Positions 3,941 through 47,026 of a stretch of 64,000 bases of DNA are shown here, one piece after another. Under the pieces are notes generated by a model, which saw only the letters and a program-made list of their open reading frames with translations, was not told the DNA's origin and ran no database searches. A program made the translations under genes and the position numbers. Every line of letters starts with the position of its first letter. The first letter of the stretch is position 1. This DNA comes from Pomacea canaliculata. Lineage: Eukaryota > Mollusca > Gastropoda > Architaenioglossa > Ampullariidae. Location: the NCBI RefSeq assembly GCF_003073045.1, contig NC_037599.1, positions 21,890,555-21,954,554 of the forward strand. Direction: 5' to 3'.

Positions 3941-6900
3941 ATGTACCAAGGCCTTGATGTCATCACCAACAAAGTGACAGCAGCGGAGCAGGCTCTTTGT
4001 CCACACCATCTCATCAGTGTCCTTAGTCCTCTTAGCAGCAATAACACTGTTACCCACTTTCGCAGCGTTGCTCTGCCTATCGTATCCTTGAACTTGCGGT
4101 GTATAAGGCAAATTAACATACAGCACCAGTTTTCTACCACACAAAGTGACTAATTTTAGGTGTCTCGTTTTTCGAAACTCTCAATGCTGAAGACATTGAA
4201 GACACTGTACAAGATAAACAAACAGCTAAACAACGGGTTTAAGAACAGTGATGTGCCAGTGAAAGACGTGAACGGTAATGTCGTCGGAGGAGAGGCAGTG
4301 AAAACTACAGCGCTGGAGGGAGCATTTTTGAGTCAGTTCTGAACAGACCAGATCCCCCTCAGCTTGCAGACTCCAGCCAGCAGCTATAGACCTTGACATC
4401 TGCACAGACCCACCAAGCCTGGAAGAAGTGACAGCAGCAGTCAAGACAATGGAAGAGCGGCAAAGCACCAGGGGCAGATGGAATAACAGCAGAGATGTTT
4501 GAAAGCAGACGTGAATGTGACAGCTCCCAGCTGACTGAAATCTTCAGGCAAATTTGGGAATCAGGGCAGGTCCCTGTTGCGTGAGAAGACAGGGCTCATC
4601 TTCAAGTTACCCAAGAAAGGAGATCTTGGAGACTGCAATAATTGGAGGGGCATAACACTTCTTTCCCTCACCAGCAAGGTCTTCAGCAAGATTGTTTTGT
4701 CAAGACTGACGGCAACTCTTGAGAAAGACCTCCGACCACAGCAAGCAGGATTTTGCCCTGGCGATCCTGCTCCGAACACATCTTCATTCTGCGACAGATT
4801 CTGGAGCAGAGCAACGAATGGAACATCCACCGCTGTACATCAATTTCATCGACCTGGAGAAGGCTTTTGACAGCATCCCACCGCGAGTCCTTATGGAAGA
4901 TCCTGAGGCATTACGGAGTCCCTGCAAAACTTGTTCAGGTCATTGCAATGCTGTACAGCGATTTCAAATCCCAGGTTGTCTGTGACACGGAGCTCACAGA
5001 CCCCTTCAACGTCAGTACCGAGAAATAGGGGTGAAACAGGGCTGCATTCTTCGCCGTTCCTCTTCATCCTGGCCATGGACTGGATCATGAAGACTTCCAC
5101 CGACAGCGAGAGGAGAGGGCTCAGATGGACCATGACTATGACAGCAACAACAGCACTGGAAGACTTGGACTTTGCTGATGACATTGCCCTGCTGTCACAC
5201 CGCCACCAAGACATGCAGGAAAAAACAAAGGCCTTCTCAGAAACAGCTGGAAACCTTGGCTTGAAGGTCAGCACAAAAAAGACTAACAGTATGAGAGTGA
5301 ACGCCAGAGTCCAAGACAGCATCAAACTAAATGGAGAAGAGATTGAGGAAGTTGACAGTTTCACCTATCTTGGTCCAAAATGTCAAACACTGGGATGCGG
5401 AGGTGGAGATTCGAGCCCGACTGGCGAAAGCCAGTCAGGCCTTTGCCTCACTCAGGAGCACATGGAAGGCAAAAAACATCAGCCAGAAGATCAAGCTGAG
5501 AATCTTCAAGTCAAATGTGATCAGCACCCTCCTTTACGGATCAGAATCTTGAAGATGACCAAAACCATCAGTAACAAGCTTGACGTCTTCCAAAACAGAT
5601 GCCTCAGGCGCATACTTAACATCTTTTGGCCAAACACCATCACCAACGAAGAACTCACCGAAGAAGTGAAACCGAGTCCATCACCACGCAGGTTCAACGA
5701 AGGCGTTGGCGATGGATTGGACATGTGCTCCGCCAGCAGACAGCAGACCTTTCCAGAGTCGCCCTACGATGGACTCCAGACGGCCGAAGAAAACGAGGCC
5801 GCCCAAAGGAAACTTGGAGAAGAACAGTGGAAAGGGAGATGAAAGGAAAGGGCTGGACATGGGGTCACCTAGAGCGTGTTTCAGCCGATCGACATCGGTG
5901 GCGGACTCTGGTTGAGGCCTTATGTGCAACCTGATGCACAAAGAGGAATAGATAGATAGATAGTTTTTCGAAACTCTCAATGCTGCAGTTAACAGATCCT
6001 TATTAAAAATGTTGCTGCTATCATATTCTTTCTTTTTTGGCTAGCATGCATTCCTTTTTTCAGTAAGACCCACAGCAAAAAAAAAAAAAAAAAAGGCTGG
6101 GGTAGAGCAGTTGCATTCCATCAGATCACCATTGCATGCACTCAACAAAGCTGTTTTAAGATATTACAGTTGGAATGCATCTGTCTTCCTAGCACACACA
6201 GGATATCTGACTTATCAGGGGAGAAGTCAGCATGGTTTGTTGATATCATCCCCTAAACTGGTCACCTATTTGGTTCAGTCTCTGCATTCACTAAGTCACA
6301 ATTTATATACATATATATCTATACAAAAAAACAGTTACAGAAAATATGAACCTAATGCATATGAGCTGATCACATTGTCAAATTTAGATTTTACTAAAAA
6401 AAAATCATATCATCAAAGCTACTTTCTTGACTATGTAATCAGACAACATAATATTTAATCTCATGGAACTTCATCCAGGATTGTCATTCACTGACTTAGA
6501 GGCTTCAGCAGAGTATGTTGGTTTAGTACAAGTTGTGTTGACTTATCTGTTGTACCACTATTTTGTAAGAGATTCTTAACTGTTACCAGATAGACAGACT
6601 GTTGGGAGAAAGCAAATTGCCAATCATTGTTGGTGGAACAAACTACTACATAGAAGCCTTGCTTTGGAATTTCTTGATTGATAAAGAGGTAGTTTACTGT
6701 TAATTTATTTTTATTCCAAAAGCCAATAGTTATGTGCTTGTGTCATTTTCATTGTCAGCTGTCTCTGAGCAAAGCCAAGGTACTGATTTATATTTGTCTT
6801 GAAGGAATATGAGTGTGTTTATTGTTTATTAATTTTAAATGTGTCAGATATCTTTTCGCGAGGAATTAAGTGTTTGTCCATTTTACTGCATTTAGTTGTT

Positions 6901-27900: not shown

Positions 27901-28224
27901 TTAAAGGACGATTTTTTTTTTTTTTGGTCGTAAAGGGTCTATGGCTGCTGTTGATAGGAACACTCGTGAGCAGATGGAGACAAATTTACATTGCTTGTCA
28001 TGTCAGGTTTTATAGCTGCTCACAAAAACTCACGTTGATTGGGACATTTGGAATTTCAATGTTATTGAGTTCATGCGACACTTCAGAAACAAGGAATTCT
28101 CCATTGCACTACGTGAATGCCAGACAACGGCTACCTGCCAGACTTTTAAACTAGAGCGCCAGAGAGAGTATGTGTTTGTGTTTAACTCCCTCTTCGTATG
28201 TGTGAAAGGTAAAACAGGGAGTAG

Positions 28225-28510
28225 GCTGTTGGCATCCTGACGAGTCAGCCAAGCGATTTTTCTATCCAGCGTTTTCTTTATCGTCAGCATGGAAAGCGTT
28301 CTAGCCCTGAAGCTTGCCCACTCTGCAGCTTCGAAACCCATCTGAATACTTCCCTCATTCCCCCAGTTGACTCGGCTGTTGAGTGAGTACCTGGCACTGA
28401 GGGGAAAAAAAAGGTCAGCAAGGGAGAGGAGACGGACTCTGCCCCACAAAGCTTGCCCACGAGGTAAGCGCGATCTCTAACGTCTCCTTCCTCTTCGACC
28501 GAAAGATTTC
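28225..28510 (+). repeat. SINE-like repeat, second copy
   Basis: Shares CAGCAAGGGAGAGGAGA, CTGCCC and GCGATCTCTAAC-type blocks (28415-28484) with the SINE at 63713-63945. This repeat also explains the long - strand ORF at 28030-28449, which is therefore not annotated as a gene. Confidence 0.55.
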
Positions 28511-30169
28511 GAGGTTAAGTTTATCGTTAACTCTGTTTTACCTACAAGGTACTACTGGATGGTGAAGACAAAGCAGTCAGCTAGTCTACTCCGATATTTT
28601 GTTCTTTTTAGCTACTTTTTCCCCCTGAAACAGCAGTAAGCACCCGTGTTATTAAGTCCATTTGTAGTCTGTGCAAATGGTCACGAAAGCAGATCCTACG
28701 TCTAGCCTTATCGATGTTTATCTCCTTTACCTCTTCATCGGTGTTTGACACTATGAACCTCTTTTCCACAGTCTCTCTCTTTGACCCCTGATTTATCATC
28801 AACCGACTTTAGGTACAGATAACACACTTACTTTAACTGATGAGCCATCCATTAAGTGGGATGCTGTCCTGTGCACATTGTATATTTAGAATTCTGAACC
28901 CAAAGACATCACGCTGCCAGTCATCACCATTTCTTGCGGATAAAATTGGAAGTCCATTTTTATCGTGGAGCCAGAATAAAACCCTGCCTCACCTACCGAT
29001 CACCACTGGATGACCAGTCATGTCTCACTCTGGCAGGAGACTACACAGCTACAGATCCCCATCGCCATAGAAATATAAAACAGGATGAAGTAGGTCTTTA
29101 GGTTTTCTGGAAGACCATGCAACTGACAATGGCCAATAAACGAAAATAAACAAATGGGTACACCACAAGATCAAGGTATTTAGAGAAGACCATCCACCAG
29201 AACAGAAAGGTGGTAGAAGTGTGTAATCTTGTATATAATACATTGTTTGAGCTTTTTCTTATTTCTACTGCTTTGTAAATGAAAAAGGCAGTAGATAGTG
29301 TAAGTAACGTTATCCTCTCGTCAAAAGTATGAAATGAAAATGGGGAAGATGCTGAAAATATTTTCTGGGATAAAATATTTACGAAGATTCATACGAGGAG
29401 AAGGTGCTGTCCTGTTACAGCTGTATCATGACAAAAAGGACATTTAAGACATTCTGAATATGTAACGGTGTTGATAGTATTACAGCACGTTTATACCTGT
29501 TCTTAATTTATCAACATATTTATCTCAGCTTTGTATTTCAGACACACAAGTAATTGTTTAAACTAATGTGAGACTTGAATGTGTTATATGGAAGAAGAGC
29601 ATTATGCCCCTGCTGGTGGTGACAGTGCTCCAGTCAGCAGAGAGAGTCAGTTGTAGCACTCGTTCTTGACACCAACTTTTTAAAACACAATTCTCAGGTG
29701 CTACCCAGAGACAGGGGTGGCCTCATTAAAAATGCAATGCATTAGCCATGCTGTTATTCGTGCTTTCACTTTTTCTTTGGCAGGATATCAACTATCAAGT
29801 ATGTCCTTGCTGCGCCGCCAGCCACCTGTTTCTTTCTTCTTTTTTTTTTAAAGTGTGACATCTTCGTATAAATCAAGCAGTGCCGTGGAAAAAAAAAAAA
29901 GGACAGAAGGTGACTTAGACGGGGTGGGAACGCCTCGCCGTAGACTCTATGGGGTGTAACCTGCTTGATGCGTTTGTCTAGTGTTTCACACAGAGGTCGC
30001 AGGAAATCAAGCAAGAACATGTGCTTTTCTGCTGGGCCAAGACTAGTAATGCTATAGTATATAATTAATATAATTAATCGGTGGCGATTTCTTGTTTCAG
30101 CTCTTCGAACCATGATTTTCCTCAGAGCCTGAAAAAGGGAAGAAAGAACGGGTTTGGTCATCGTTCACA

Positions 30170-33100
30170 ATGCTGCCGCCAGTCCTGGCAGTCGTGGGAC
30201 TGCTGCTTGCCGCAGCTCCTTTGTCGGTGGATGGCCGCATGGGCCGTTGTCACCAGGCTCCTAGGTTCACCGTCAACGGCGTCGAGCCGCTCCAGCAGAC
30301 GCGAGGCAAGGTCACGGTCGTTGCTCTCCTGATCAGCACCTGCAGCTTTTGCCTGCAGCAAGCGGAAAGGTGAGTCGCTTAGCAACAAGGATACCTCCCT
30401 CCCCCCACCTTTAAGTTGGAAATCATGTGGAAACTCATCTCACTTTACAGGCCGGTAACTGTAGTGATGCTGATGAGGATATATATATAAAACTCAGTGA
30501 GTCACACCTTTCACAGACCTCAACTCCAGCTTCAGAGTCCAAAGATAGATTTGCTGTTAAAATGTGGCTTGTACAATCATGACTGAATCACTGAAGTTTC
30601 TGCTTTTCCTAACAAACATAAAAACATATCAGATAATTTCTGAGAGTTTGTTACTTTGTGTCTGTATCACTTTGCTCAACTAGTTTCGAATAAAGCCCAG
30701 AATACTGAATCATGTAAACAGAAGAATATTGTTATTTCCAAACTTCTGTATAAGCTTAGCTAAATAGTTATTTTTGAGCAAGATTACGAATGCATTAGCT
30801 AGTTTTTTCTGTTCATATTACTTTTTCATTCGCTGGAAATTTTTGTGCCACAGAACAACAGTGGCTTTTGACTGCAATTTAATCGGTTGATGAAAACACC
30901 TTAACATATATGTTTAGTGAACGCCATGATTAGATTGATAGATGTTTTTGATCTGTTGCATAAGGAAGTGAACAAATTAGTTCTGAAGTTTCCATTTAGA
31001 AACATACCTGCAAAAAAAGAAGGCAATACATTGGCTTGTCACAAAAGAAGCTGTTCTAGACATCTGTAACTTTGCTTGCAGATTGGAAACTCTTAAAACT
31101 GAGTTAGCAAATGAAGGCCACAATGTGGAGATGTTCATTATAAATGGGGTGTCGGTGGTTCACCAGACAACATCAACAATCTAGTCAGCCGCGTATCATT
31201 TCCAGTATATCAGGATGACAGTTCTGAACAGATTTGGAACCAAGTCTTCAGGGGCAGAAAAGATGATATTCTTATCTTTGACAGGTATGATGACAATAAG
31301 TAACTTGAAATGAATGTGTAAAAAGTTATTTTTTAATTTAAAACAATAGAAGCAAAAATCTGCATTTATATTCAAGACAAAAATGTTACAATTCAATCCA
31401 CAGCAAAGTTATGATTTAGAACTATTCACATTTGGGATCTAAAATTTTCCATAAATGATATAACTTCCTTATTTATATATATTTGGAGTAAACCATGTCC
31501 TTTTATCATTTTACTAATTCACAGCCTTTGTTTTAAAGTATTTCAAGCAAGTGCAGTTTTAGAAATTTACCTAGGAAAAAAATCTGCGACAAAACTTTCC
31601 TATTCAGTTGTGTATATGAGCTTGTCTTATTAAATCTAATTAATAAAAATTCATATATTATTACAATAAATAAAAAAAGGACACTAACATTTAAAGTTAA
31701 ATCAACTTTCTATTTTTTCTTAAATCAGCTGCTATGGGACTTTATTTTTTCATTTTACTGATGATAAATATGTTTGGAATAACATAATCATGACTGTATG
31801 TTTCACAGATTTCTAAATATCACGAGGCAATGTTTTAGCTATATATTCCTGCTTGTGTTTCTCTGAAAATACCTTTTTTTTTTTAGTTTCATAAAGTTTT
31901 GTTATCTTGAATGAGGTATGCATTTCACTTGTATTGTTCAAAATTTCATTTTATTAGATGTGGAAAACTTACTTACCACCTGGAGTTTCCAGCAGTATAT
32001 CTAGGCTACAACTATGTGCGGACTGCAATACGAAGAACACTCAATCGTCCCATATGCCCAGCATGCCAAGATCAGTCCACTGACCCACATAACAGCATGA
32101 TGGGCGACGCTCCAGCAGCAAATAGATTTGCTCCTAGACAGTCACGTCCTCGTGGTCATCGCAACAGGAATCGCAACACCAACCAAAACAGGAACCACAG
32201 CCACTGTCCAAGGGATGACCCCCTGTGCACAGAAATTCATCAAGTCACACAGCAGTGGCACCGTCTCCAGAGACAAAATACTCTGAGCCACAACTTTAAT
32301 GAGCAAGAAGGCTTGAGAATCTTCACAGAAGAGGCTGGCACCCAGTTTCCTGGAATGGCTCCTCTTTGAGAATGCACACGATTTAACACCACAACACAAC
32401 GCTTGCGTCCGAGTCACAGATGTTATTGTCCAAAGGATGATGTGTCTCCAAATTGTAACTGTTCTTACCCTTTACATGGTCAATCTGATGCTATCATTGG
32501 TTGGAGATGTGGTTGCCACCACCCACATGAGTATGTGCGAAATCTTTGTCGCTGTCGTGCATGCTTTGGCCATCGTGAGTGTCAAGTTCCTATCATAAAG
32601 TCAGTCTGTCACATGAGATGTAGATGCCCATCTGGCTCAGATGATGCCAGCACACAGATGATAGAGACATCTTGACAGTGACATGAAGACCAACTAACAT
32701 CCTGACAGACACAGAATGCCATCTGACAGCACACTGGTCAGGGAGATAGATGACAATGACAAAGTGGTCAGTTAAGAACTTGACAATGACAAAGTGGTCA
32801 AACTGGGCCTGACAATGACAGAGTGAAGTCGGTAATTGACAATGAGAATCATCTTTAAATACCGTTCCCTGAGAGTGAAACGGTCAGTTAAAGTCATGAC
32901 GATGACAGCTTGGTCACAACTGACAGTGACAAGATGGTGTTTCAGGGTCTAGCTGAGAGTGACAAAATAGCCAGCTCTCTTCCTGACAATGAAACAATAC
33001 AGAGGAAGACACCAGCTGACAGTGACAACTGGGTCAACTCTCATGAAGATGACAAAACAGAAACTGACAGTGACGAAAGCTAATCAACCATGCTTCAGGC

Positions 33101-33229
33101 AGACAGTGACACACCAACAACTCACGGTCCTTACCATATGGCACAGGTCAGTCACTGTGACAGGGAAACAGAATGTTGTGACAACAGCATGATATCCACA
33201 GATGACAATGACATCCGTCATTTCAGTAG
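30170..33229 (+). CDS. SELENOP: Selenoprotein P with a UGA (Sec)-rich C-terminus
   Basis: Selenoprotein P is a secreted plasma/haemolymph protein that stores and transports selenium. Coding exons: 30170-30369, 31082-31284, and 31958 to a TAG at 33227-33229. Residues 1-22 look like a signal peptide. A thioredoxin-like domain follows (KVTVVALLISTCSFC, VSFPVYQDD, DDILIFDRCGKLTYHLEFP), with Cys58-x-x-Cys61 where vertebrate SelP has Sec-x-x-Cys. An Arg/Asn/His-rich linker and a region with about 14 Cys follow. UGA codons begin at 32367 (context PL-U-EC). From 32673 onward there are 33 more, mostly as UGA-CAR-UGA pairs. Two single-base breaks interrupt the frame, at the G run 31146-31149 and at 32805-32809; each is bridged by one added base. 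There is no TAA/TAG in the UGA frames before 33227. I did not find a convincing SECIS in the 3' flank. Confidence 0.92.
32673..33211 (+). repeat. Sec-pair repeat: UGA-X-UGA every ~7-11 codons
   Basis: Fourteen UGA-X-UGA units start at 32673, 32751, 32781, 32810, 32837, 32870, 32897, 32921, 32954, 32984, 33017, 33044, 33065 and 33203. The middle codon is Gln in ten, Glu in two and Arg in two. Units from 32751 to 33065 are 21-33 nt apart. Single UGAs lie at 32367, 32703, 32724, 33107, 33158 and 33179. The spacers between pairs differ in sequence. The unit phase shifts by one base between 32781 and 32810. Confidence 0.85.
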
Positions 33230-35436
33230 GCCGTCATGTCCCTCAGAGTCATTCTTTGAAAAGCTGTGGTGGCAAAACACATCAGTCTATTCCTGCTTTA
33301 CCTCAGACAAACAGGTCAGTATGAAACCATTGGACAAAACCTAGCGGCGTTCAACAGCTGAACTTTGATCAGTGCTGTCTAAGGTAAAGATGGAAATGTT
33401 GCTTTCTTATGTCCTATACGCTGAAAATATACTTCTTTTTATGAGAATATAACCTCTGGCTTCTTAAGTTTCAGTATTCTAATGATAGAATAATCATTCT
33501 GTGCATTTGATTCTAAATTTACTTATCAATTATTATACTTATTCTACTTTTACAATTATTATACTTATTTACTTACCAAAATCCCACATATGATCAATAC
33601 TACAGAGCTTCAACTGATCTGTATGTCACATTTAAATTATTAGAAATCTGATATAAACTGATAATAAAATACAAAAGTTATTATTATATTTTAACTGTTG
33701 TACTAAAAATGAACATTTATACAGCATCAAACAATTTTCAAACTTAACTACATTTGTCACATGTATGCAATGTTAACAGTGATTTAAATGGCATCATATA
33801 TTAACATGTATTAACAAGCATGTAATCTTGACACTTCATAACCAATACTTCAAGATTTGATAATTTTATTATTATAATTAGGTAATCATAAATTCTACTT
33901 GATTCATTATCATAAGATAATAATAATTATCATTATATAGCTAATCATAAAGACTACTTGATAATAAGTTTCATTTATGCATTCATAGCACCTTGTTTGT
34001 TTACAGCTGCTTTAACACATGATGACAAAGTAACAAGTGAAAACTTGGTTTAAAATTATATAAAAGATATCTCAGTTATATGTCACTTCAGAACTGAACT
34101 GTGCTAAAGTAAACAAATGAAACTGCTTCTGTAACAACAGACAAGTTTGATATCTTCAGAAATCACTCAAAAGAAAACAGAGTTTCTTGGATTTAATTTC
34201 TTTCATAAAACATTAGGTTTGGGACCAGGATTATTGATTATTTTCCTCCTTGCATCTGAGCAAACCAAGTCTGGCCACACAGTCATTTTTGTGATGTAAA
34301 AGAAAAACCAATAGAACAAAATTAATATTTTGTCATTTATTATAATTCTAATTTAACCAGTTTTGTGTAACCAGCATAGAAAAATGTGAAAGTAACAAGT
34401 GCAATTTTATGAATTAAAAAAATTGTATATGCAAAAAGTATGCATCCCTTTTCAGCATATGTTCTACATGTCAAATGTGATATAAATATTGCAGCTTTTG
34501 TGAGAAAATGATTAAAGAACAAAATTTAATACTGAGACTGTCATTTAATTAATGTATACCCATTTGTGTAAAAATAAATATCAGACCGCATTCTGTGTAG
34601 AAACAAACATGCTCTATGGCCATTCAGTGTTTCTATTCATCATAACAGAATGAGCGTTAATGTCCTTCAGTTTTTATTTTCCCAATTTCACACTCTTTCC
34701 AACTCTTTAAGTCAGTTCTGCAATAATATTGCATAGCACTTTAGATGATGGAATGGGTGGGGAAGAGTGGTTTAGTAAGGGATGGGAAGTGTTGTCTTTA
34801 AAAACATTTTGCCAACTGTGCTGAGATCATGTTACCAGGTAATGAAAATGCATCATAAATGCAACATACAATCATGTATTTATTACCACAAATTGTTTTT
34901 GCAACCATCTGTTCTTCACTCTAAAGCAACAGTACACACGAAATGCTGATCAAGGGTAAAAAAAAAAGGTAATTAAATGATCATATATCAAAAATGAGAG
35001 TGAGAGAATGACTAGGCATAAAGGTGCATTTAACACATGAAACATAACATTTTACAGAACTATAATAACTGCAGCAATTTAGAATTACACGTTTTGCCAC
35101 TTGGTGTCTCCGTACTGTGGACAATGCTTAAATATTCCTTTTTTTTTTTTTTACCTATTTCCTGCTATTCTATTTTTGTACCCATTTAAACAAACTCTAA
35201 GAGCTTCACGCATATTATAAACATGCAACAGCTATACAAGAAAATATATAATAGTCCAAATACACATCAGGAAGAACCAAATGATCTGGAAGCAGCTGAT
35301 ACCAGAAAATCTAGTTTCAGCAATAAACTAATGTGAGGGAGAAGATGGTATGACAATTGGTGTTTATAAGTCACCAGAACTCACAGCATGTTACTGATCA
35401 GACTAATAATAGTAAAAAAAAAAAAACCCCCAAAAA

Positions 35437-35615
35437 ACGTGTGATTTATATCGCACGTGATCATGCTCATAAAGGAGCAAGCTTTCAGCATTTAAGATGA
35501 GAACAAGACATGAGAAGCATACAGAGGACGGAAGGATAAGCAACCGTGCAGACAAGTAATAAAAGATAAACACAGAGGACACAAAGAGGAACCAACAGTA
35601 AGGATTGGGTTTCAC
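35437..35615 (+). repeat. Dispersed repeat, diverged third copy
   Basis: Resembles the copies at 45745-45975 and 51210-51415: a CGCAC/GCATACTCA-like head, GCTTTCAGCATTTAAGATGA near 35480, and ACACAAAGAGGAACCAA near 35579-35595 shared nearly exactly with 51379-51395. Boundaries are approximate. Confidence 0.5.
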
Positions 35616-36472
35616 AAATATGCCGAGGAAGACAAGCAGGTGGACAAGTCAACACATGGAAAAAGTAAAAGAAATAGAAGGTGAAGTTTCTGGATTGTTG
35701 TTAGGAATAAAAGTGGTCTGACTTCCTCATTCCCCATTACAGTTAAATACAGCAAAGGGGCTGTATGAATCACGACAAAGGTCAATGATAGGAAAACTGT
35801 ACAGAATAAAGTGGTCAAGATGAATTATTCTCTCTATATTCTTAGACTTAAACAACAGGAAACAAGTGATGCTGTTGTTTTATAAAACGACATTTGTTTG
35901 CAGTCTAAGACTTTGACCTTTTCTGCTTCATACAATAAGGCTGAGGATACTAGATACAAGACTTTTTAAATCAGTTAATGAGCATTAGTATGAAACATCC
36001 TGGCTTAAGTAGTGAAATAAAAACTAAGAAAGACAAAAAGTGCTGTGGTGGATTTCATTATAAACTGACACTCTAGTCTGCTATAGTAGACAGGTAAATT
36101 TGCTTGCTGACTGCCATAGCTATAGCAGACATTATCAGGCAGCTAAACCTACAGCCTTCAGTGGATCTAGGATAAAAATTACAGATCAGATATCACCTGA
36201 ATGATCGCCTTTCTATCTCTTACTATCCCTATTAAGCTTTTATTTTTGGATGATTATCAAAAAGGAAATGAAATAGTTAAATGTGTATGCACACTTACAA
36301 GCAAGAGAGAAACTGTGCAAGAGAGACAATGTAGAATTTGCTGATAAATGGGATTTGATGTATGTGTACTTGAACTATTCTTCCTTGTTACTTCATATAC
36401 TGCTCACAGAAATTTAATCTGCACAGTGTAAGCTGATTAAAAACATGAAGGAGCACATGTTTTGTGAATAGG

Positions 36473-36812
36473 TGGATTGCTGTCTGCCTGCCAAGATCAG
36501 CCCTTAGCATCTTGCGAAGTTCTCCGCTGTTAGTCTAGGCACAAACTAATATCCCTGGACTGCTGGCAGACAGTTTTTCCAGTTAACTGCTAAAACGAGG
36601 CATTGGACGACACAGCTTCTGGTTTATTCACATTCTTTGTTACGCCTCACAGAGATTAACAGCGGATCACCTCGGCAGACAGACAGCAATCCACCTATAC
36701 ACATCCTTGGTCTCGGGAGCCTAAACAAAGAATGTGACTAAACTGGAAGCTTTGTAGTCTCATGCCTCGTTTTAGTAGTTAACTGGAAAAAATCATCTGC
36801 CAGCAGTCCAGT
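36473..36812. repeat. Interleaved inverted repeats (possible foldback/MITE)
   Basis: Two inverted pairs alternate. Pair A is AGGTGGATTGCTGTCTG (36471-36490 area) against its complement at 36680-36700. Pair B is about 36557-36641 against 36725-36812, sharing CTGGACTGCTGGCAGA, CCAGTTAACT, CTAAAACGAGGCAT and CACATTCTTTG. A TAATA motif lies next to both ends of pair B. The order is A, B, A', B', so it is not a simple single hairpin. Confidence 0.65.
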
Positions 36813-37657
36813 AATACAAGTTCATGGTGAAATGTTGTGTCCTGTGACTGTTTTGACATGTATGTAAAGAGGTATGGGTAGTAACACTCATCGGGAAGTA
36901 TGATTAGTTTGCAAAAAACATAATGTTTGGGAATGCAATATAAATAGTATGTAGACAAATCAGCACGAATATAAATCATTAGTTAACAATGTCAAAAATG
37001 CTTGAGGTTCTATGTACAGTCTAGTCACTAAACTTCAACATGTTTACATTCTAACAGCAATAAAATCTTCCCATCACAATGATGATGAATGACTCATTCT
37101 CCCACAATCCATTCCTCTTTTCATCTTTTAGACTGCAGTAAGTGAAAAAACAAAAAATTATGCCCATCCTACAATGGTTATCCATTAGTAAGGCAGATGG
37201 TGGTGATGAACATGAAACTGCTGGTGGAAGGCAAGTTTTGTCATCAGTCTTGAAATCTGCTGGAGAACAAAGAATGTCTCTCTCCCAACACTGGTGGGTG
37301 ACAAATGATTTGTCTCTCTCACCAGTGTGGTCCAATAAACAAAGATGGAGTGCTCTTTAAATTTAGGTTTTAAAGCATCTCAAATCAGTAACATGTGTGG
37401 ATCTCTATGAAATGCTGTAAAATCTGGCCCAGTGACCTTTTAGTCATGAATTCTCTGATAGCATACCAAAACATATTTACCTGTTTAAACAGATTAAATC
37501 TCAACCATAATATTCTACATTTTTTCAAACACCCGCAGTAGTGTTCAGAGTTTGTACATTATCAAAAACAACCATGAGTTTTTATGTTTAAAAAAGCTAG
37601 ATTTTTAAAAGTTATGCAGGCTACTGGTTCCCTTTCTTTACTGTTCCTTACAACTGT

Positions 37658-40607
37658 TCACAATTCTTTGTCTCGAGAAAACAGTTGTTGGCTGCTCTCG
37701 TCATTGCCAGAGTCAGCAGCAATGGCATCGTTGACAGCATGACTGATAGTGTTGAACAGTTTGTCAGGATCCACCCAAGGACCCCAGGCTTCCAGCACTT
37801 GGCCTTCATGGCTCACCAAGTATTTCCAAAAGTTCCACTGAGGCACTTTTTTGGATTGCTCTACAACACAAATAACAAAGATGATAATGAGTTCTCCTGT
37901 ATAGCTGAATTTGAAATAATTTACAGTTATAAGTGTCTCATTATCTGGCATCATTTCAAAGACAGATATGTCCACACTCTTGGCCTCTATCTCTTTCACT
38001 GTTTAGACCTACATTTAATGTGAATTTTTAGTTTTATTTTATACTTTTATTTTTAATTTTATTTTCAGAACAATAAACAACTTGACTTCTTAACGAAAAT
38101 TGGTTTAATTAAAAAAAAAATCTATCAGCAATTCCATGTGTTTGGAATCCTAGCTCTTAATGCTTTCTAAAGATCGGAAAATGATTTGTAAGACTCCGTT
38201 GGTTCTTTTTCAAAAATTATTTACTTGTAGATGCAGCAACATTTTTTCATATTATTTTGTCTTGTCTATTTCATTTTGTTTTTACAATGTTGCAGGTGAC
38301 TTTTACCACTTCTATTGGCTGTGTATTACAAAAGCAAACCATAAGATGATGTAATATTCATAAATACATACACTACTGAAATCAGTTGTGTGGTTTTATG
38401 TGTGTTGAGTGTGTTTAAGATAAATCTCAACAGAAAATTTCTAGCTTTCCTTTAAATATAAAAACTAGTTCACTTTGCTAATTTTTAACAACACACTTAC
38501 CAATTAAAAATGTATATGCATCGAGGGCATCTTGTCCTTTGACATGTACTTTGGCAAACATGGGAAAGTTCACACTGTAAGTTTTTTTTGCAAATCGATA
38601 GATGGCAGCATTAGACTGAAAAAAAAATCAAAATTGACATTCCTCATAAAGATTCCTAAATGCTGGTATTATCATTCTTAATGAGCTTTCTGATGAGGAT
38701 AGTTTCATTTTTTGACAGGCATATGGTCAGAGACACTGTTTCAAAAGCAGTAGATTTAAAATGAAATTTCATCTTTATTCATCAATCTGATGTTCACCAA
38801 CATTTCATTAAAATTTGTTCTTTAAAAGTATGTGATAATAACAAAGCTATATAATCTGAATGTTTTGCCTACCTTAGGCTCTTGTTGACCAAATTGATTA
38901 CAAGGAAAGGCAAGAACATTAAATTTCCCTGTTGGTCCCAGCAATTCTTGCAACCTGACTAAGCTCTTGTAATGATTGTCTGTGTATCCACATTCACTGG
39001 CAACATTAACAACGAGTGATACCTGCAATCCATAAAACAATACAATAACAATCTGATACATGTAAAGCATTCTGATCTAAGAAACACTAAATAATGAGCA
39101 TCATAACTATACTGCCTAATCATATCTAGAAGATTAACAAACTAGAAAGATGGATTTTTCCATGTAGTTTTAGCCAAGTAAAGGAATATAAAAGTACTAA
39201 GGTACAACTCTACAACAATTTTAATATAGGTATAACAACAATTTTTAAATTAAAAATAGATAAATAAGAAAAGGAAGAGGTATGGCTGATAGCATTATAA
39301 TTCAGCAATGCAGCATATTTACAATTAGATGTTTATATATATAGCCATGAGCTAGTTCAGTGGTTCTCAAAGTATTTCGGACCGCGGACCACTTTACTTA
39401 AGTAAAAAATATGGCGGACCACCAAGGCCTAAAAATCACTTGGTACTATGAATTTCAAATTTAAATTGCAGCATTTGTTTCATTACAATTCAAAACTAAA
39501 TGTATTTCTGTGACAGTAGCATAGTAATAAGTTGACATAAAACTACTTATACCTCGTTCTTTGTAGTTAAAATGTTAATGCGAGGAATGCATCACTTTAA
39601 ACATCACTTTGCTGACATATGGTGACTGTCAGCCGCGGACCACCTGACTTATGCCCGCAGACCACCACACTTTGAGAACCACCTGAGCTAGTTAATACTG
39701 TAATGATGATGATGATGATGATCATGATGTTGATGATGCAGAATTCTGGCATGTAGCCAGAATCTCTGCCCTTTACATTACAAGGCTAAGCATAAGATAC
39801 AGACATTGAAACTAACTAGAAAAAGGGTTTTGTTTTAAAATTTAGTACTTTCTCTCTCTCCCACACACACATATATATACACACACCAAGTATAAGCAGC
39901 TATAGTCCATCCCAATAACCGGTGTTATTCAAACACTGTTTACTTTATTTACTCATTTTCTTAAGTGAACAGTGAAAGTAAATGTAGAAATAAAAGTACT
40001 AATACGTCTTTTAAGAAATATGACAAGAATAAATCTCAACAACTTGAACTGATCATTAACAAAAGTCAAAAGATAACATCTGAATAAATTGTATGAATAA
40101 CCATAGAACAATGCCTGCCCCATGTTTTCTTATTCAATTTTTGTTCTCTATTTAATTGAGTGATGGGAAATTCAGCGACTGATTTTACTGCTCAGTCATC
40201 ATCAATGCTGCAGGAAAGCACAACTGATGATGACCACGAACTTCTACACGTTCGTGGGATGACTGACAGCAGAATCTCTTTTGTGTGCGTCTGTGGAGAC
40301 CAGACGCTTGAGAATTTCCTCGCCTCCTCAGCCTGTTGCGTCTTTGGAGTGGAATTAGGATCTTAAGTTATTTTCTTATGGATAATGAAATATTCTGGAA
40401 AATATTTACCTTTCCTTTGTATTTTGTCAACGAAACAACATTCTCGTTAATATCCATCACCGTGTGAGAGTAGAAATTCAGTTTTTCGTCGTCTGCTGCA
40501 CGGGTTACACAAGTCAGCAGCAACCAAATAAGAGAAACACATACTACCAGTTTAAAACTTATAAATTTTGTATGCCTGATTTGAACATTATTTCCTGAAG
40601 GCAACAT
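37658..40607 (-). CDS. GPX8: Glutathione peroxidase of the GPX7/GPX8 type (Cys form)
   Basis: Members of this subfamily are ER peroxidases that reduce H2O2 and feed oxidising equivalents to protein disulfide isomerase. The choice between GPX7 and GPX8 is not resolved. Exons in transcript order: 40607-40410, 39022-38873, 38615-38501, 37860-37658; phases agree and give 221 residues. A hydrophobic segment at residues 18-33 could be a signal peptide or type II anchor. The peroxidatic position is Cys77 in [10 protein letters not shown], encoded TGT, not UGA. A second Cys107 lies in AFPCNQFG, with Gln109 and the Trp163/Asn164 pair in QWNFWKYLV completing the active site. Short length and no dimer loop fit GPX7/8. 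The C-terminus SRDKEL resembles a KDEL-type ER retrieval signal. A hAT MITE sits in its first intron. It is transcribed divergently from CDC20. Confidence 0.93.
39358..39685. mobile_element. hAT-type MITE (328 bp) with 8-bp TSD
   Basis: Terminal inverted repeats are CAGTGGTTCTCAAAG on the left and CTTTGAGAACCACCTG on the right. The 8-bp duplication AGCTAGTT flanks it (39350-39357 and 39686-39693). Subterminal GGACCGCGGACCAC and GCCGCGGACCACCTGAC are also inverted. There is no coding capacity. Same family as 54171-54656. It lies in the first intron of the peroxidase gene. Confidence 0.92.
39701..39738 (+). repeat. GAT trinucleotide microsatellite
   Basis: Imperfect tandem GAT/ATG triplets just right of the MITE. 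Confidence 0.8.
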
Positions 40608-42179
40608 GACAAAAACAAAAACTGTGCTACGTGAGAAAAGCTACATAAAATGCAGACAATTTACTTCGTAACGCAAACCGGAAGTTCGTATAAGTCCCAC
40701 ACGATAAACGTGGAAGGAAGTGTCTTTTAAACAAAATGTAACACAATGTCATCGCCACAGAAGTCTGAGAGAAGTCTATGATTTGATGGTGTCGGTCATC
40801 TCTACCTATAAATAATCGGGCCGGTCGTTTCCTCAAAGACCTTATCGCTCCAGCCACAAACTTATATCCGTCCATGCTCCAGCCATGTCATATTATCGTC
40901 TCAAGACCACGTCCAACACTAAAAGCCTAATATATATTTCATTTAAATTAGTTCAACCACCATTTACTAATTAAAAATAGCTGTTTGGCAATACCCTTCG
41001 CATATATTTTACAATGACTCAGAAATCTGATTTTCTCTTTCAAATAAAAAAAAAATACAGATCTTGTCATCATTCTATTTTGAATTTGTATTTTAACTTT
41101 TTCATATTGCGTATGCATGTACTCTGAAGTCGAGAGAAGTGCTATATAAATATCTATATAATTTATTACTATTTGCAGAGGTTTGGGGTTAAGTTAAGAG
41201 CATGAATCTTCGCACGGCTATATTTGAAATGAGCGGCTATGGTTCTATTGGCAATATTTGACTTTAATATAGCTATATCTTGTCACCGTTGATCGATGTC
41301 TTTTGGACCCGACACGATTCGGCTTTTGGTGTTACGACAATATTATGACTGGGCCGCATGGTCTTGGGGCGAAATGACCTAGTGAAATCCTGGAGCATGA
41401 TTTTTTTTGTTTTTAATAAGATGGTTGCTTTTAGAGACAATTCATTTTGAGGGGTTGAAAGTTGTGACTGTTCACAATTCGACGCTAGCAGATCTACTAT
41501 TACATAATCGAAAATCTTTTGCTGTTTTCATTCGTGCACCCAGCAGCCACCCACACGTGCGCCACCCGTTACTTCGACATAGAGATGTATGGTAACAAGC
41601 TGACCAATCATTTTAAAGTACGCCATTCTATTGGCCAATCGCGTGGAGCGGTAAGATTGAAACGAAGACTGCGTCGTGTCTAAACTTGTTGCTTATGGTG
41701 GTTACTGTAAAAAGGTAATTTTAGCCTACTTCTTTACCTTTATATAAGGATATCTTGGTCTGCGATCATGTATTTTGAACCAAATTTTCTTGGAGACATT
41801 TCACGACGATTATCAACGCTTGAATGTGAGACTAGCACTCTTTATTTTAATCTCACGTTGTTAATGATCGATTGAAAACGAAGGTGTAGATAATTATGTT
41901 ACTGTCAAATTTTATCGCAAATTCAGATTAAAGAAAATTAATGTTCATTAAAAGTAATGTTATTATATAACTTTTCCAGTGCTGATTGTCGATCGCCTCA
42001 AACCGATCTAAAGTGGCATAGTATTGACATTTACTCATTTCTATTGTTAAATGGATAGTAATCAGAGTAAATGACAGATGTCAGTTGTGACAGTTCCATG
42101 ACGCTGTAATGATTGTTATCACGATAACCAGCCTGTTTGTTTTTCTTTCTTTCGTTTTCACTTAAGGAATTAATTGAGA
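40608..42179. other. Divergent promoter region, GPX7/8-like and CDC20
   Basis: About 1.6 kb separates the two start codons. A probable CDC20 5' UTR exon ends at 41714 (AAAAG followed by GTAATT). It would splice to the acceptor at 42166, 13 bases before the CDC20 ATG. CCAAT motifs lie just upstream of that exon. Nothing else was recognised. Confidence 0.55.
41604..41639 (+). promoter_or_regulatory. Paired CCAAT boxes, likely NF-Y sites of CDC20
   Basis: CCAAT occurs at 41604-41608 and again at 41635-41639, 31 bases apart, and an ATTGG at 41630-41634 abuts the second. NF-Y sites about three helical turns apart are typical of G2/M cell-cycle promoters, including vertebrate CDC20. The position upstream of the probable 5' UTR exon fits. 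This is inferred from motif and position only. Confidence 0.5.
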
Positions 42180-45100
42180 ATGTCGCACTTTGATCTTGAG
42201 AACGAAGTGAATAGTGCATTGAAGATGGATGCCCCACTAACAAGAGGTCCATTAATGAGATGGCAGAGAAAAAACGCAGATCCAGGAAACCAATCGCTCA
42301 ATTCCTCAGTGGCAAATGCCAGCCTTACTTCGTCCAGTAAAACACCAATGAAACTTGTTAACCAGCCCTCTATGGGTCAACCAAAGACTCCCTCAGCAGA
42401 TACAGGACGGAAAACACCCAAATCTTCAGCTGGTAAGATATTTTCCACTGATGACAAATAAATGCTCTTTTAGGACTGGATTGGAAGATATTGCCTGATA
42501 CTTAAATAGGACAAATTTAAAAATACAACATTTATTGCAGCAATTGTCAGGGATCATGCAGAATGATGGGTATCAATGCTATTTTTGATTCAAGATCAAA
42601 TTTCATGTCAGTGCTATAAAGATGTTTTGAAATAATAGAGCTTCTAATAGAAATAATAAACATATAATTTATAAAAGTGCTTCTGTTCCTTTTATTGTCA
42701 TTTTTAACTCTTTTTGTTGAAGATGGTAATGTTCACATTATTAACCTTTATTATCTATAGGAACAGAAGAACTTCGTAAGTTGAGGACCACCTGTATATT
42801 TATTCAAATGCTTATTTCTCAAAACTTTGAAGGTACTCACAAGACACCAAGCAAAACCTCTAAGACTCCCAAGAAAACACCAAAAGCTGGCGATCGCTTC
42901 ATTCCAAATCGAACAACAACTCAATTTGATGTTGGACATTTCAAGCTATCCAGAGATGCAGAAGCAGAGTGTGAGGCTTCTCAGGAGCTGTTAAGTCCCT
43001 CGCAAGTAGAGTATCAGAGACTAATGAGTGAAAATCTGAATGGTGATCGTTTGAACCATAAGATTATTTCCTATAAAGAAAAGGCTCCTGGTGCACCAGA
43101 AGGTAAGCCTGGCCATGAAAATCTCCAAATAAACATTTAGGTGTGGCAGTCTTTTAATAAATGCCAGCTGTGTGTTGACATTCCTCAATGACTAGCAAAG
43201 TAAAGCCCTACTCTAGACTATGTAATGTTGCATGGTCATCAGGGCTTCTGCTAAGGCTAAATTCATTGGGGTCCCAGGGACCCCTTCAGATTTTTAAGGG
43301 GTCCCTGTTCTTCGCCCAAATATGAATGGGACCCCATTGACGAAAATTGAAGGGGTCCTCTGAACTTTTAATGCGTACTGTACGCAATTTTTTGCGTAAG
43401 CAGAAGCCCTGGTCATCATCTGGCTGAAAATTTGTTTTTTTACAGATCAATATTTTTGGGGGTGGGGGGTGAGTTTGTTTTGTCCTGCTTTTCTCTGTGT
43501 GTATGCATGTAGCATTGTCTGGATTAGATATGCAAATGATTAACTTATTTATGCAATACTTTATTGTTGCAGGTTATCAAAGCAACTTAAAGGTGTTATA
43601 CAGCAGTACAAAAGCACCAGCAAGTGCAAAGAAAACTACACGACATATACCACAGATTCCAGAACGCATACTAGATGCTCCAGATATTTTGGATGATTAC
43701 TGTGAGTTGAAACCTACATCACATCATCTAGCTTCCTCACAAAGTTTATACATCCACACAAACAGCTCTTCTTTGTCTAACTTCAGATCTTCTGCAAAGC
43801 TATTCTGGGGCCATTTGAATCTGGACCTAAGTCTTTTACGGTCTAAATGACTTGAGCTGTTTGGGAATTACCAATTTATAAATCTGATGATATTAAAAAT
43901 GTGCATGGAGAATGCATTTGGATAAAGGCTGAGGTTCTCATCATGTGTGTAAAGATATTACATACTTTGCTGCATAATATTGTGCCATCTTATGAAATCT
44001 CCAGTAGCTTTTCGGTCTTTGCAACCCTTCATTTCCCATCATTTTGTTTTTGTAATTTGCAATAGGGAAATGAGCTGTGAAAGTGCTTCTATTATTGCTG
44101 CTGCTACTACTACTTTAACAACAGATTTAAAGTCTAGAATTCCTTGTTTTTCAGATTTAAATCTTTTAGACTGGTCAAACACCAACCTGCTTGCAGTCTC
44201 ACTGGGTGGGAGTGTGTACCTCTGGAATGCCTCAACAGGAGAGATCACTCAGCTTTTGCAGATGGAAGGGCCAGAAGAGTATGTTGGTGCAGTATCCTGG
44301 ATCAAGGAAGGCAACTATCTGGCTGTAGGGACAAGGTCAGGTGAAGTACAGGTATTAAATCATTTTTTATGGATGATTTCTGGCATGGTGTGAGGAAGTG
44401 GTTGGTGCCTGGGAGCTATTTTCCATGCACCAGAGATATGAATCCTTTTATAGCAGTTAAATTAGTCATTTTTATGAGATCTGTTGGTAAAGATTGAAAT
44501 AATAATTAGGATTTCCTCATGAAAATCACTGTGTGCACATTCAGGTGATATATCTATGGTTCATGTAGACTTCTTCCTTTGCTAATTATTGCCTGGTGGT
44601 TTGCACATATAGCTTTTATTTGACTGTTAGATTTGGCATATATTTTCAAGATTAAAGAAAATTGTATTTTTTTTTGTAGAGCCACATAGATGATTTACAA
44701 GGTGTATGTGCATGGGCGTGTGTATATTCTGCACAACTTTGATAAATGGATGATAACATACTGATGTATGTGTTATACTTGTGATTGATTACATAATGCT
44801 TTTTCTGCTGTCATTTTGCAGCTCTGGGATGTTGTTCAAAAAAAGAGATTGAGAAACATGGCTGGACATTCTGCTAGAGTTGGATGTCTTTCCTGGAATT
44901 CCTATATTGTTAGCAGGCATGTAATTACTTTATATTTACTCGATATGATAATTGATTTTTTTTTCTCTCTGGGGTGCACATTCCATACATTATTCATAAG
45001 GTGTCTTCCATTTCTCACCCTTATGTGTTAGCCTCAGACTAAAGTGGACCTTTGTATTAAGATAGTTTATACAGCATAGGGTCTTGTGTTTATACAGCGC

Positions 45101-47026
45101 AGGCTTTTCAACAATGTAATCATCTTAGCATCTAAGATCCAGTCAAAGTCAGCTGTGTATCTCTGTTGTCATAGTTTACCTCCATAAGTCAAACATTAAC
45201 ATTTGTTTTGGTTTTTTGGTTGTTTTATTTTTCCAGTGGTAGCCGAAGTGGTAACATTCACCATCATGATGTGCGTATGGCAGAACACCACGTGGGCACT
45301 CTGAGTGCCCACACGCAGGAAGTTTGTGGGCTGAACTGGTCACCTGATGGCAAGCATCTGGCCAGTGGAGCCAATGATAATCTCCTATGCATCTGGCCAG
45401 CTCAGACAGTGGGAAGTGTTGCTCAGCCACTATATACATTTACACAGCACCAGGCTGCTGTCAAGGTAGGCACACCCATGCTGGTTGAGAACTTACTAAG
45501 CATTGTCACCAGATTCAGTGTAATAGTCAATGAGGACAAACCTTGCAATTGTGATGTCTAGCTTTGAAGCACGTGAATCAGCATCTACAGCATACTTTGC
45601 ATGCTATTTTTAGTAGGTAGTGAAACTGATGCTGGTTTTTCCAGATCATCGACAAGTTAAAAATATTACTATCTGTGAAAAAAAGCATAATTGAGGCAGT
45701 CCACTGTGGCTTAAATAAAAAATATTTGTATTCACCGAAGTAATGATAATAATCATAATAAATGCAAAATTTTTAAAGCGCATACTCACACTCCTAAAGA
45801 GTATACTCTTAGCGCTTCAGAACAAGAACGAAACATAGCATACGAGGGACAAGAAAACAAATAACTTATGAGCTATAAAAAAATAAACAACCGTACTAAA
45901 CGAAGAATAAAATCAAATACAGAAAACGCAAAGAGGAACCAAATAACAAGAATAAGAGCTGAGAGTAACCGAAAAAGTAAACAGCAGTTTAGACTTTAAA
46001 AAAAAAAAAGTTATCTGGTAAGTTGATACTGATTTTCTGAAAGTTCATAAAGGTGATATTTGCATGTGTATAAATATTTTTATTCAGCATGATTTCTGCT
46101 ACAACCATTTACCATCTTTCCCACAGAATGTATTCAGAATGGAATGCCTGTCTATGATATCAAAATCTAAAATTTTGAGTTGCTTTTTCATTGAATGCTA
46201 AACAAGTTCTTAACCTTATCTCTTCCATAACTTCTACTATATACTGTGATTATTTTCTACCAGGCAGTATCCTGGTGCCCTTGGCAGCCAAGTCTTCTCG
46301 CTAGTGGAGGAGGCACAGCTGACCGCCACATACGCTTCTGGAACTGCAATACTGGAACTAGCTTGAATGCTATTGATACAAAATCACAGGTATATTTCTA
46401 CATGGTGCTACTTTATAAACACAATAGGATATTTATCTACTTCATGCTGTGTGTGTAAGAATATGTAAACTACTGATAATTCGAGTCTTATTCCAATCAT
46501 TTGTCTGCTATCTGTGATTAACCTATGTGTACCTGTCAGGTATGTGCCATACTTTGGTCACGGGAACACAGAGAGCTGATTTCCAGTCATGGCTTTGCAC
46601 AGAACCAGCTTATCATCTGGAAATATCCAACAATGTCTAAAGTCGCTGAGCTTACAGGTTAGACACCTGCTTATTTCACATTTCATTTATTGGGTTTTTG
46701 TTTTTCCTTTTTAAAGTGTAGTATTCGATGAACATGAGTTTTTGTTGGGTTTCAATGAGTTTCTATTGTTCCCAAATGTCCTGAGAGCTTTTTATTTGCA
46801 TTAACACATTAAAAAGAATATCTTTCTTCATCTGTTCTTCTTAGGTCACACAGCCAGGGTACTTCATATGGCTATGTCCCCAGATGGTGAAACTGTTGTG
46901 TCAGCAGGCGCTGATGAGACCCTCAGACTTTGGAAGTGTTTTGCTGTGGATGAAGAAAAGAAAAAAATGAAGACAAAAACTGTAGGAAAAGAGACAGGGT
47001 CCTCACTGAGAACCATGATTCGATAG
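42180..47026 (+). CDS. CDC20: CDC20 (fizzy), APC/C coactivator
   Basis: CDC20 activates the anaphase-promoting complex and is the target of the spindle checkpoint. Nine exons: 42180-42432, 42833-43102, 43573-43701, 44155-44351, 44822-44916, 45237-45465, 46264-46389, 46540-46657, 46845-47026; phases agree and give 532 residues. Start context [10 protein letters not shown] matches the family. Motifs: PLMRWQRK near residue 25, a TP-rich stretch with repeated KTP (residues about 55-101, possible CDK sites), the C-box DRFIPNR (105-111), a MAD2-binding-type [10 protein letters not shown] (181-190), then WD40 repeats from about 215 ([78 protein letters not shown]). It ends in the APC/C-docking dipeptide Ile-Arg. 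No KEN box is seen; the region aligned with human KEN reads SEN. Intron 5 has a GC donor. The end of 'exon 5' is fixed by YIVSSGSRSG. Confidence 0.98.
43242..43409. mobile_element. 168-bp MITE with 9-bp TSD in CDC20 intron 2
   Basis: Terminal inverted repeats are GGGCTTCTGCT and AGCAGAAGCCC, flanked by the 9-bp duplication TGGTCATCA (43233-43241, 43410-43418). Inside are further inverted GGGGTCC and GGACCCC blocks. The boundary could also be read as CAG/CTG ends with a 5-bp duplication. A 9-bp duplication favours Mutator-like, but the superfamily is not settled. Confidence 0.85.
45745..45975 (+). repeat. Dispersed repeat, copy 1 (CDC20 intron 6)
   Basis: Matches 51210-51415 over about 200 bases: GCAAAATTT, GCATACTCACAC, CTCTTAGCGCT, GAGGGACA, ACTAAACGAAGAATAAAATC, and AATAAGAGCTGAGAGTAAC. 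It has an AT-rich head and no coding. It may be a SINE or a MITE. It lacks clear polymerase III boxes. Confidence 0.75.

Follow-up and report, generated by a model that had tools for sequence, protein, structure and literature searches.

The window analysed here, a 64,000-nucleotide stretch of Pomacea canaliculata contig NC_037599.1, contains a gene whose sequence supports its assignment to selenoprotein P (SelP) with a multi-UGA C-terminal domain. Its coding frame carries 34 in-frame UGAs, 33 of them crowded into a tail that is free of TAA, TAG, Cys and Trp codons. We consider it very probable that this SelP is a secreted selenium carrier, made in a 34-Sec form by readthrough past the first UGA (UGA1), and that the two one-base slips in the assembled coding sequence are errors or private alleles. 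In a translation of 29900–37500 with TGA taken as Sec, the gene lies on the plus strand in three coding exons joined via phase-2 introns, with the splice sites read by eye. Exon 1 (30170..30369, donor GT at 30370) encodes a hydrophobic N-terminus, seen by eye, and the start of a thioredoxin-like domain with the motif CSFC, and exon 2 (31082..31284), as assembled here, shifts frame by one base near 31148. The last coding exon (31958..33229) encodes the rest of the SelP_N domain, a linker that by eye is rich in Arg and Asn with some His, UGA1 (32367..32369), a Cys-rich domain (32370..32672), a Sec-rich tail (32673..33226) and the stop codon TAG (33227..33229). A possible short upstream ORF of 6 codons with a UGA end (30112..30132, plus strand) becomes relevant if the 5' leader includes it; a leader ORF is a feature of oyster SelP.

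The identity of the N-terminal part is clear from profile and protein matches. With the exons joined by XX at the exon 2 slip, the query matches PF04592 (SelP_N) over residues 25–218 with E=1.4e-37 and 129.8 bits, against a cut-off of 23.2. It also matches an NCBI Pomacea canaliculata protein named selenoprotein Pb-like (93%), and tblastn places the NCBI P. canaliculata protein on the window in three segments at 99–100%. The PDB yielded one weak thioredoxin-family match (E=0.081). The original prediction had called the upstream exons clear SelP; the SelP_N and NCBI matches support the SelP identity, but with its frame slip exon 2 is not entirely clear. An exon-by-exon SelP_N search of the 440-Mb genome in which the window lies gave three matches, two of which correspond to exons 1 and 3 of the present gene; exon 2 is absent from the matches altogether. 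The third (L011, the C4 match) is only just above the curated cut-off (23.3 versus 23.2 bits), has one TGA inside and by our reading falls in a CVCVCV low-complexity stretch, and we rejected it as a second SelP copy. By this exon-by-exon search, to which exon 2 contributed nothing, the genome has a single convincing SelP locus. A third genome match of TGACARTGACARNGTGGTCA (L003) was treated as chance, a comparable array not being seen there. No Pomacea SelP was found among the literature matches listed, in a search whose literature did not extend to the 2019 mollusc survey discussed below.

The N-terminal redox site in exon 1 is CSFC, with Cys rather than the Sec of a U-x-x-C motif. In an alignment of nine homologues (P0001 included; P0002, P0010, P0011, P0013, P0014 and P0015 left out), all eight proteins that cover the site have Cys there, a sample that is biased because gene finders would cut proteins with Sec at this position. 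We treat the CSFC form as a variant inside PF04592 that gives no ground for exclusion from SelP. Two Babylonia areolata proteins outside the alignment, P0010 and P0011, read NSSFS at the redox site and have Ser at both Cys positions. At the other end of the domain, seven of the eight aligned homologues besides P0001 end a few residues from the UGA1 position, and P0009 extends beyond it, two of the eight being from the snails Nucella and Babylonia; these ends are known as protein only, and proteins do not reveal which stop codon terminates them. When UGA1, its surroundings and the sequence beyond were searched for homologues, 23 candidates came up, none at E<=0.01, a result that says little because the length filter also bars short models such as P0001.

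The two one-base slips lie in exon 2 near 31148, a slip absent from the earlier reader's account, and in the tail at 32805–32809. The profile search also found a contig protein from another source, P0013, that reads 31008–31300 in a single frame and has two residue differences from the window, both upstream of the exon 2 start. Because exon 2 is unbroken in P0013, the exon 2 slip is likelier to be an assembly error or a private allele than decay, and by analogy the tail slip may be of the same origin. Just before UGA1, at 31911–32366, the window differs from the contig protein P0002 at one residue in 152. Both P0002 and the NCBI model P0001 stop at UGA1. The exon 2 segment of P0001 (31115–31285) aligns from a later acceptor, without the piece LETLKTELANEGHNVEMFIIN, and this later acceptor appears to be a way round the frame slip. 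We take the longer exon 2 as real because LETLKTELANEGHNVEMFIIN has counterparts in Nucella and in a contig protein. The locus is an instructive example of misannotation, in which the NCBI protein ends at UGA1 and seems to be spliced so as to bypass a slip of the assembly.

Downstream of the linker, the 285 full codons of 32367–33229 comprise 34 TGA and, ahead of the terminal TAG, no TAA or TAG when one slip at 32805–32809 is allowed, just as the original prediction had it with a slip at about 32807. These counts constitute the multi-UGA C-terminal domain looked for in a SelP. Nine of the TGAs are in frame A, at 32367, 32673, 32679, 32703, 32724, 32751, 32757, 32781 and 32787, and the remaining 25 are in frame B after the slip, from 32810 to 33209, followed by the TAG at 33227. 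The earlier description of 28 TGAs in 14 TGA-X-TGA pairs is exact, six further TGAs being single, and Gln is indeed favoured as the middle residue (Gln 10, Glu 2 and Arg 2). The starts of consecutive pairs are 21–33 nt apart from 32751 to 33065, in agreement with the spacing of mostly 21–33 nt described earlier, and with the slip bases dropped the frame is held across UGA-to-UGA distances of 5 to 17 codons.

The UGA pattern is far from chance: over 20,000 codon shuffles of the 183-codon Sec-rich part the pairs averaged 5.7 and never exceeded 13, versus 14 observed. The densest other TAA/TAG-free 549-nt stretch in the window (both strands, sampled every 5 codons) holds 9 TGAs versus 33 in the tail. 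Of 12,606 other 417-nt blocks, taken at steps of 10 codons, none has more than 6 pairs, a number reached at about 39600–40100, where there is a TGATGATGA run, versus 11 in frame B alone. Every one of the tail's 33 TGN codons is TGA, which leaves no Cys or Trp codon; TGA is one change away from each of TAA, TGC, TGT and TGG. The 150 non-UGA codons of the tail include no TAA or TAG, against 5.35 expected from base shuffling (P=0.004). Because duplicated units are not independent, these codon statistics overstate the case. A C directly follows the UGA in 27 of 33 cases in the tail versus 262 of 1348 TGAs elsewhere on the plus strand, an excess due for the most part to the Gln codons. Four of the other five frames of 32810–33227 contain TAA or TAG (the two plus-strand frames have 3 TAA in one case and 2 TAG with 1 TAA in the other), and one reverse-strand frame has neither.

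UGA1 stands apart from the other UGAs, 303 nt upstream of the paired array, with the Cys-rich domain in between. The division of Cys and Sec across this part of the protein is complete, in that 101 residues contain 14 Cys and no UGA and the next 183 codons contain 33 UGA and no Cys codon. Five C-X-C pairs occur in the Cys-rich domain (shuffle P=0.016), and the U-X-U pairs of the tail look like the Sec counterpart of these preceding pairs. No unusual RNA structure was found at or just after UGA1, where five of five windows have a positive z. The array had also been predicted to have grown through the duplication of a U-Q-U unit some 10 codons long, a proposal that is partly supported. Tandem Repeats Finder reports a single array, at 32735–32800 (period 30, 2.2 copies), and the 19 units chosen by eye share the 11-nt core TGACARTGACA between nearly random flanks, a pattern that is partly true by construction because the units were picked on the pair.

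A SECIS candidate, marginal and partly post hoc, lies at 33321..33390 on the plus strand, starting 92 nt past the TAG, and presents an ATGA, a helix, AA at offset 12–13 and a GA. The strict descriptor pass over 32300–40000 gave two matches, both within the Sec tail. In the pass over 33230–41000 the candidate at 33321 is the best of 6 and is equalled in 1 of 20 shuffles; in the pass over 33230–35400 it is the best of 2 and is equalled in none of 40 shuffles and in 1 of 29 other window blocks. A narrower loop limit drops the candidate and leaves a best score of -12.8, which at least 12 of 60 shuffles bettered, and under the widened limit it scores -15.4, reached by 2 of 100 shuffles, which is a post hoc result because the limit was widened after the candidate was first seen. 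On the same scale, two elements beside GPx-like exons score -14.1 and -13.9, and an element beside a SELENON-like exon reaches -25.2. A stabler stem competes for the 3' arm of 33321–33390 (z -3.37). Rfam gave no match of any family in 28000–42000 at E<=1, and no SECIS at E<=10 in 33200–35600, 35500–38500 or 33230–33560; the alignments built toward a SECIS covariance model held 3 and 2 sequences and paired poorly.

As a control, Rfam SECIS_1 was run on the species' own genome, where it gave five matches, all below the curated cut-off, among the 150 of 9639 candidates that were scored; it also matched in 4 of 14 control genomes, never above the cut-off. One 3-kb locus of the P. canaliculata genome combines a SECIS-like match with an in-frame UGA in an SCUG motif. 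From the translations, we take the SCUG-bearing exon to be SELENON-like and the exons at two other SECIS-like loci to be GPx-like. The SECIS-like elements beside these exons (L005, L007 and L008) all fall below the Rfam cut-off, and the remaining two of the five SECIS_1 genome matches look doubtful.

Taken together with the gene structure, the UGA array suggests the following course of translation. Ribosomes would first translate the thioredoxin-like domain with its CSFC site and then reach UGA1 at the end of that domain, where most would probably terminate to give a selenium-free short form. Ribosomes that insert Sec, presumably an inefficient event at UGA1 in which any SECIS would take part, would continue through the Cys-rich domain and read the 33 further UGAs processively to the TAG, yielding a form with 34 Sec that could transport selenium. 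Judged from the sequence, processive reading after a checkpoint at UGA1 appears the most likely mode. Since the last coding exon contains every one of the 34 UGAs, exon-junction-dependent decay would not be expected unless the 3' UTR is spliced. The late UGAs of oyster SelP are reportedly efficient, a finding attributed to Baclaocos et al. For mammalian SelP, mouse mutants support an inefficient first UGA, as described in excerpts of PMC5133445.

Other explanations of the locus are less persuasive. Some of the decoding at the UGAs might give Cys or a different residue, or only part of the tail might be made, as excerpts of a review describe partial Cys replacement and short SELENOP forms (PMC8230778). 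We regard this as rather unlikely for a tail without Cys codons, an absence which suggests that Sec itself is selected. It is very unlikely that UGA1 is simply the true stop of the 259-residue NCBI form and the UGA array a 3' UTR remnant of a lost Sec tail. That reading gains from the termination of the NCBI model at UGA1, the want of a secure SECIS and the slip that breaks the tail, but a decaying tail would be expected to gain TAA by single transitions, whereas here 33 UGAs are retained without a TAA, TAG, Cys or Trp codon and the 101 residues past UGA1, with their 14 Cys, remain open.

The slips themselves could mean that the locus is a SelP pseudogene in this lineage, with two genuine frameshifts, the more so as the neighbouring CDC20-like and GPx-like exons looked unbroken by eye. 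This we consider extremely unlikely, given that exon 2 is in one frame in the contig from another source, that the exon-by-exon genome search found no other convincing SelP locus, and that 31911–32366 differs from P0002 at only 1 of 152 residues. Scarcely credible, finally, is a minisatellite with a TGACARTGACA core whose coding look is incidental: the conserved 11-nt core between nearly random flanks, one recent tandem duplication and the reverse-strand frame that likewise lacks TAA and TAG would all fit it, but the array stands in frame behind a SelP domain, keeps that frame with UGAs 5 to 17 codons apart, and has stops in the other plus frames of 32810–33227 (3 TAA, and 2 TAG with 1 TAA).

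Within our preferred reading of a 34-Sec carrier, a more speculative possibility, which we hold only tentatively and think doubtful, is that the tail is a chain of Sec-X-Sec beads patterned after the C-X-C pairs, with Cys selected against and the checkpoint shifted from the redox site to the domain boundary. Diselenides were predicted earlier for Sec-rich SelPs, according to excerpts of PMC2397514, and we suggest a diselenide within each U-X-U pair. If the bead reading is true, each pair could bind metal or lock up its selenium in a local diselenide; a stop at UGA1 would release a complete Sec-free redox protein and reading on would release a selenium store, with the UGAs shielded from nonsense-mediated decay by their position in the last coding exon. 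With Cys in the N-terminal site, the first UGA comes only after the whole domain, which would make the checkpoint experimentally separable from redox function. With 34 UGAs in one exon and a Sec-only tail beside a Cys-only domain, the gene would offer a compact test of ribosome processivity at UGA, and it is equally a test case for why Sec instead of Cys is retained.

Vertebrate SELENOP resembles the Pomacea protein in combining a thioredoxin-fold N domain with a Sec-rich C tail, and in the human protein two U-X-U pairs (URU and UEU) close the tail. The SelPs of Lottia, a gastropod, and of amphioxus are, like that of Pomacea, invertebrate SelPs. The mollusc SelenoP survey of Baclaocos et al. 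2019, J Mol Biol 431:4381, reportedly describes proteins with a SelP N-terminal domain followed by tens of UGAs, as in Pomacea; set beside these, Pomacea SelP has 34 UGAs mostly in U-X-U pairs and has Cys in the N-terminal redox site. Excerpts of a 2024 paper (PMC10875847) cite the mollusc survey for gastropods. Human SELENOP has 10 Sec, the first in U-x-x-C, and vertebrate SELENOP has two SECIS elements, according to excerpts of PMC8230778, whereas Pomacea SelP has no N-terminal Sec, 34 UGAs and an uncertain SECIS. Excerpts of PMC3473315 report Lottia gigantea SelP in 2012 alongside amphioxus 3NSelP, whose repeated Trx-like domain carries 3 Sec and whose C-terminus carries 2, in contrast to the long C-terminal array of Pomacea. 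Sea urchin SelP has 28 Sec (excerpts of PMC2397514) and is again an aquatic invertebrate protein with a Sec-rich tail, a likeness drawn by description. The original expectation that mollusc SelPs carry tens to more than a hundred Sec agrees with excerpts of PMC8230778, which give 46 for oyster and 132 for a bivalve. Multi-Sec invertebrate SelP is already known because these two, Lottia SelP and the sea urchin protein have been published; three traits of Pomacea SelP may be distinctive, namely how regularly its UGAs are paired, a tail with Sec throughout, and a first UGA placed at a domain boundary. Its strict pairing and Cys-free, all-Sec tail make it a clean example of mollusc SelP.

The surroundings of the gene contain several further features, all recognised by eye. 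A glutathione-peroxidase-like gene of four exons, with Cys in its site (NVASECG), lies on the minus strand at 37562–40640, convergent with SelP, and a long inverted repeat, possibly a small mobile element, occupies the intergenic region at about 36470–36820. ORF translations at 42174–45561 on the plus strand resemble CDC20-like WD40 exons, and ORFs at 4535–5934 resemble retrotransposon reverse transcriptase.
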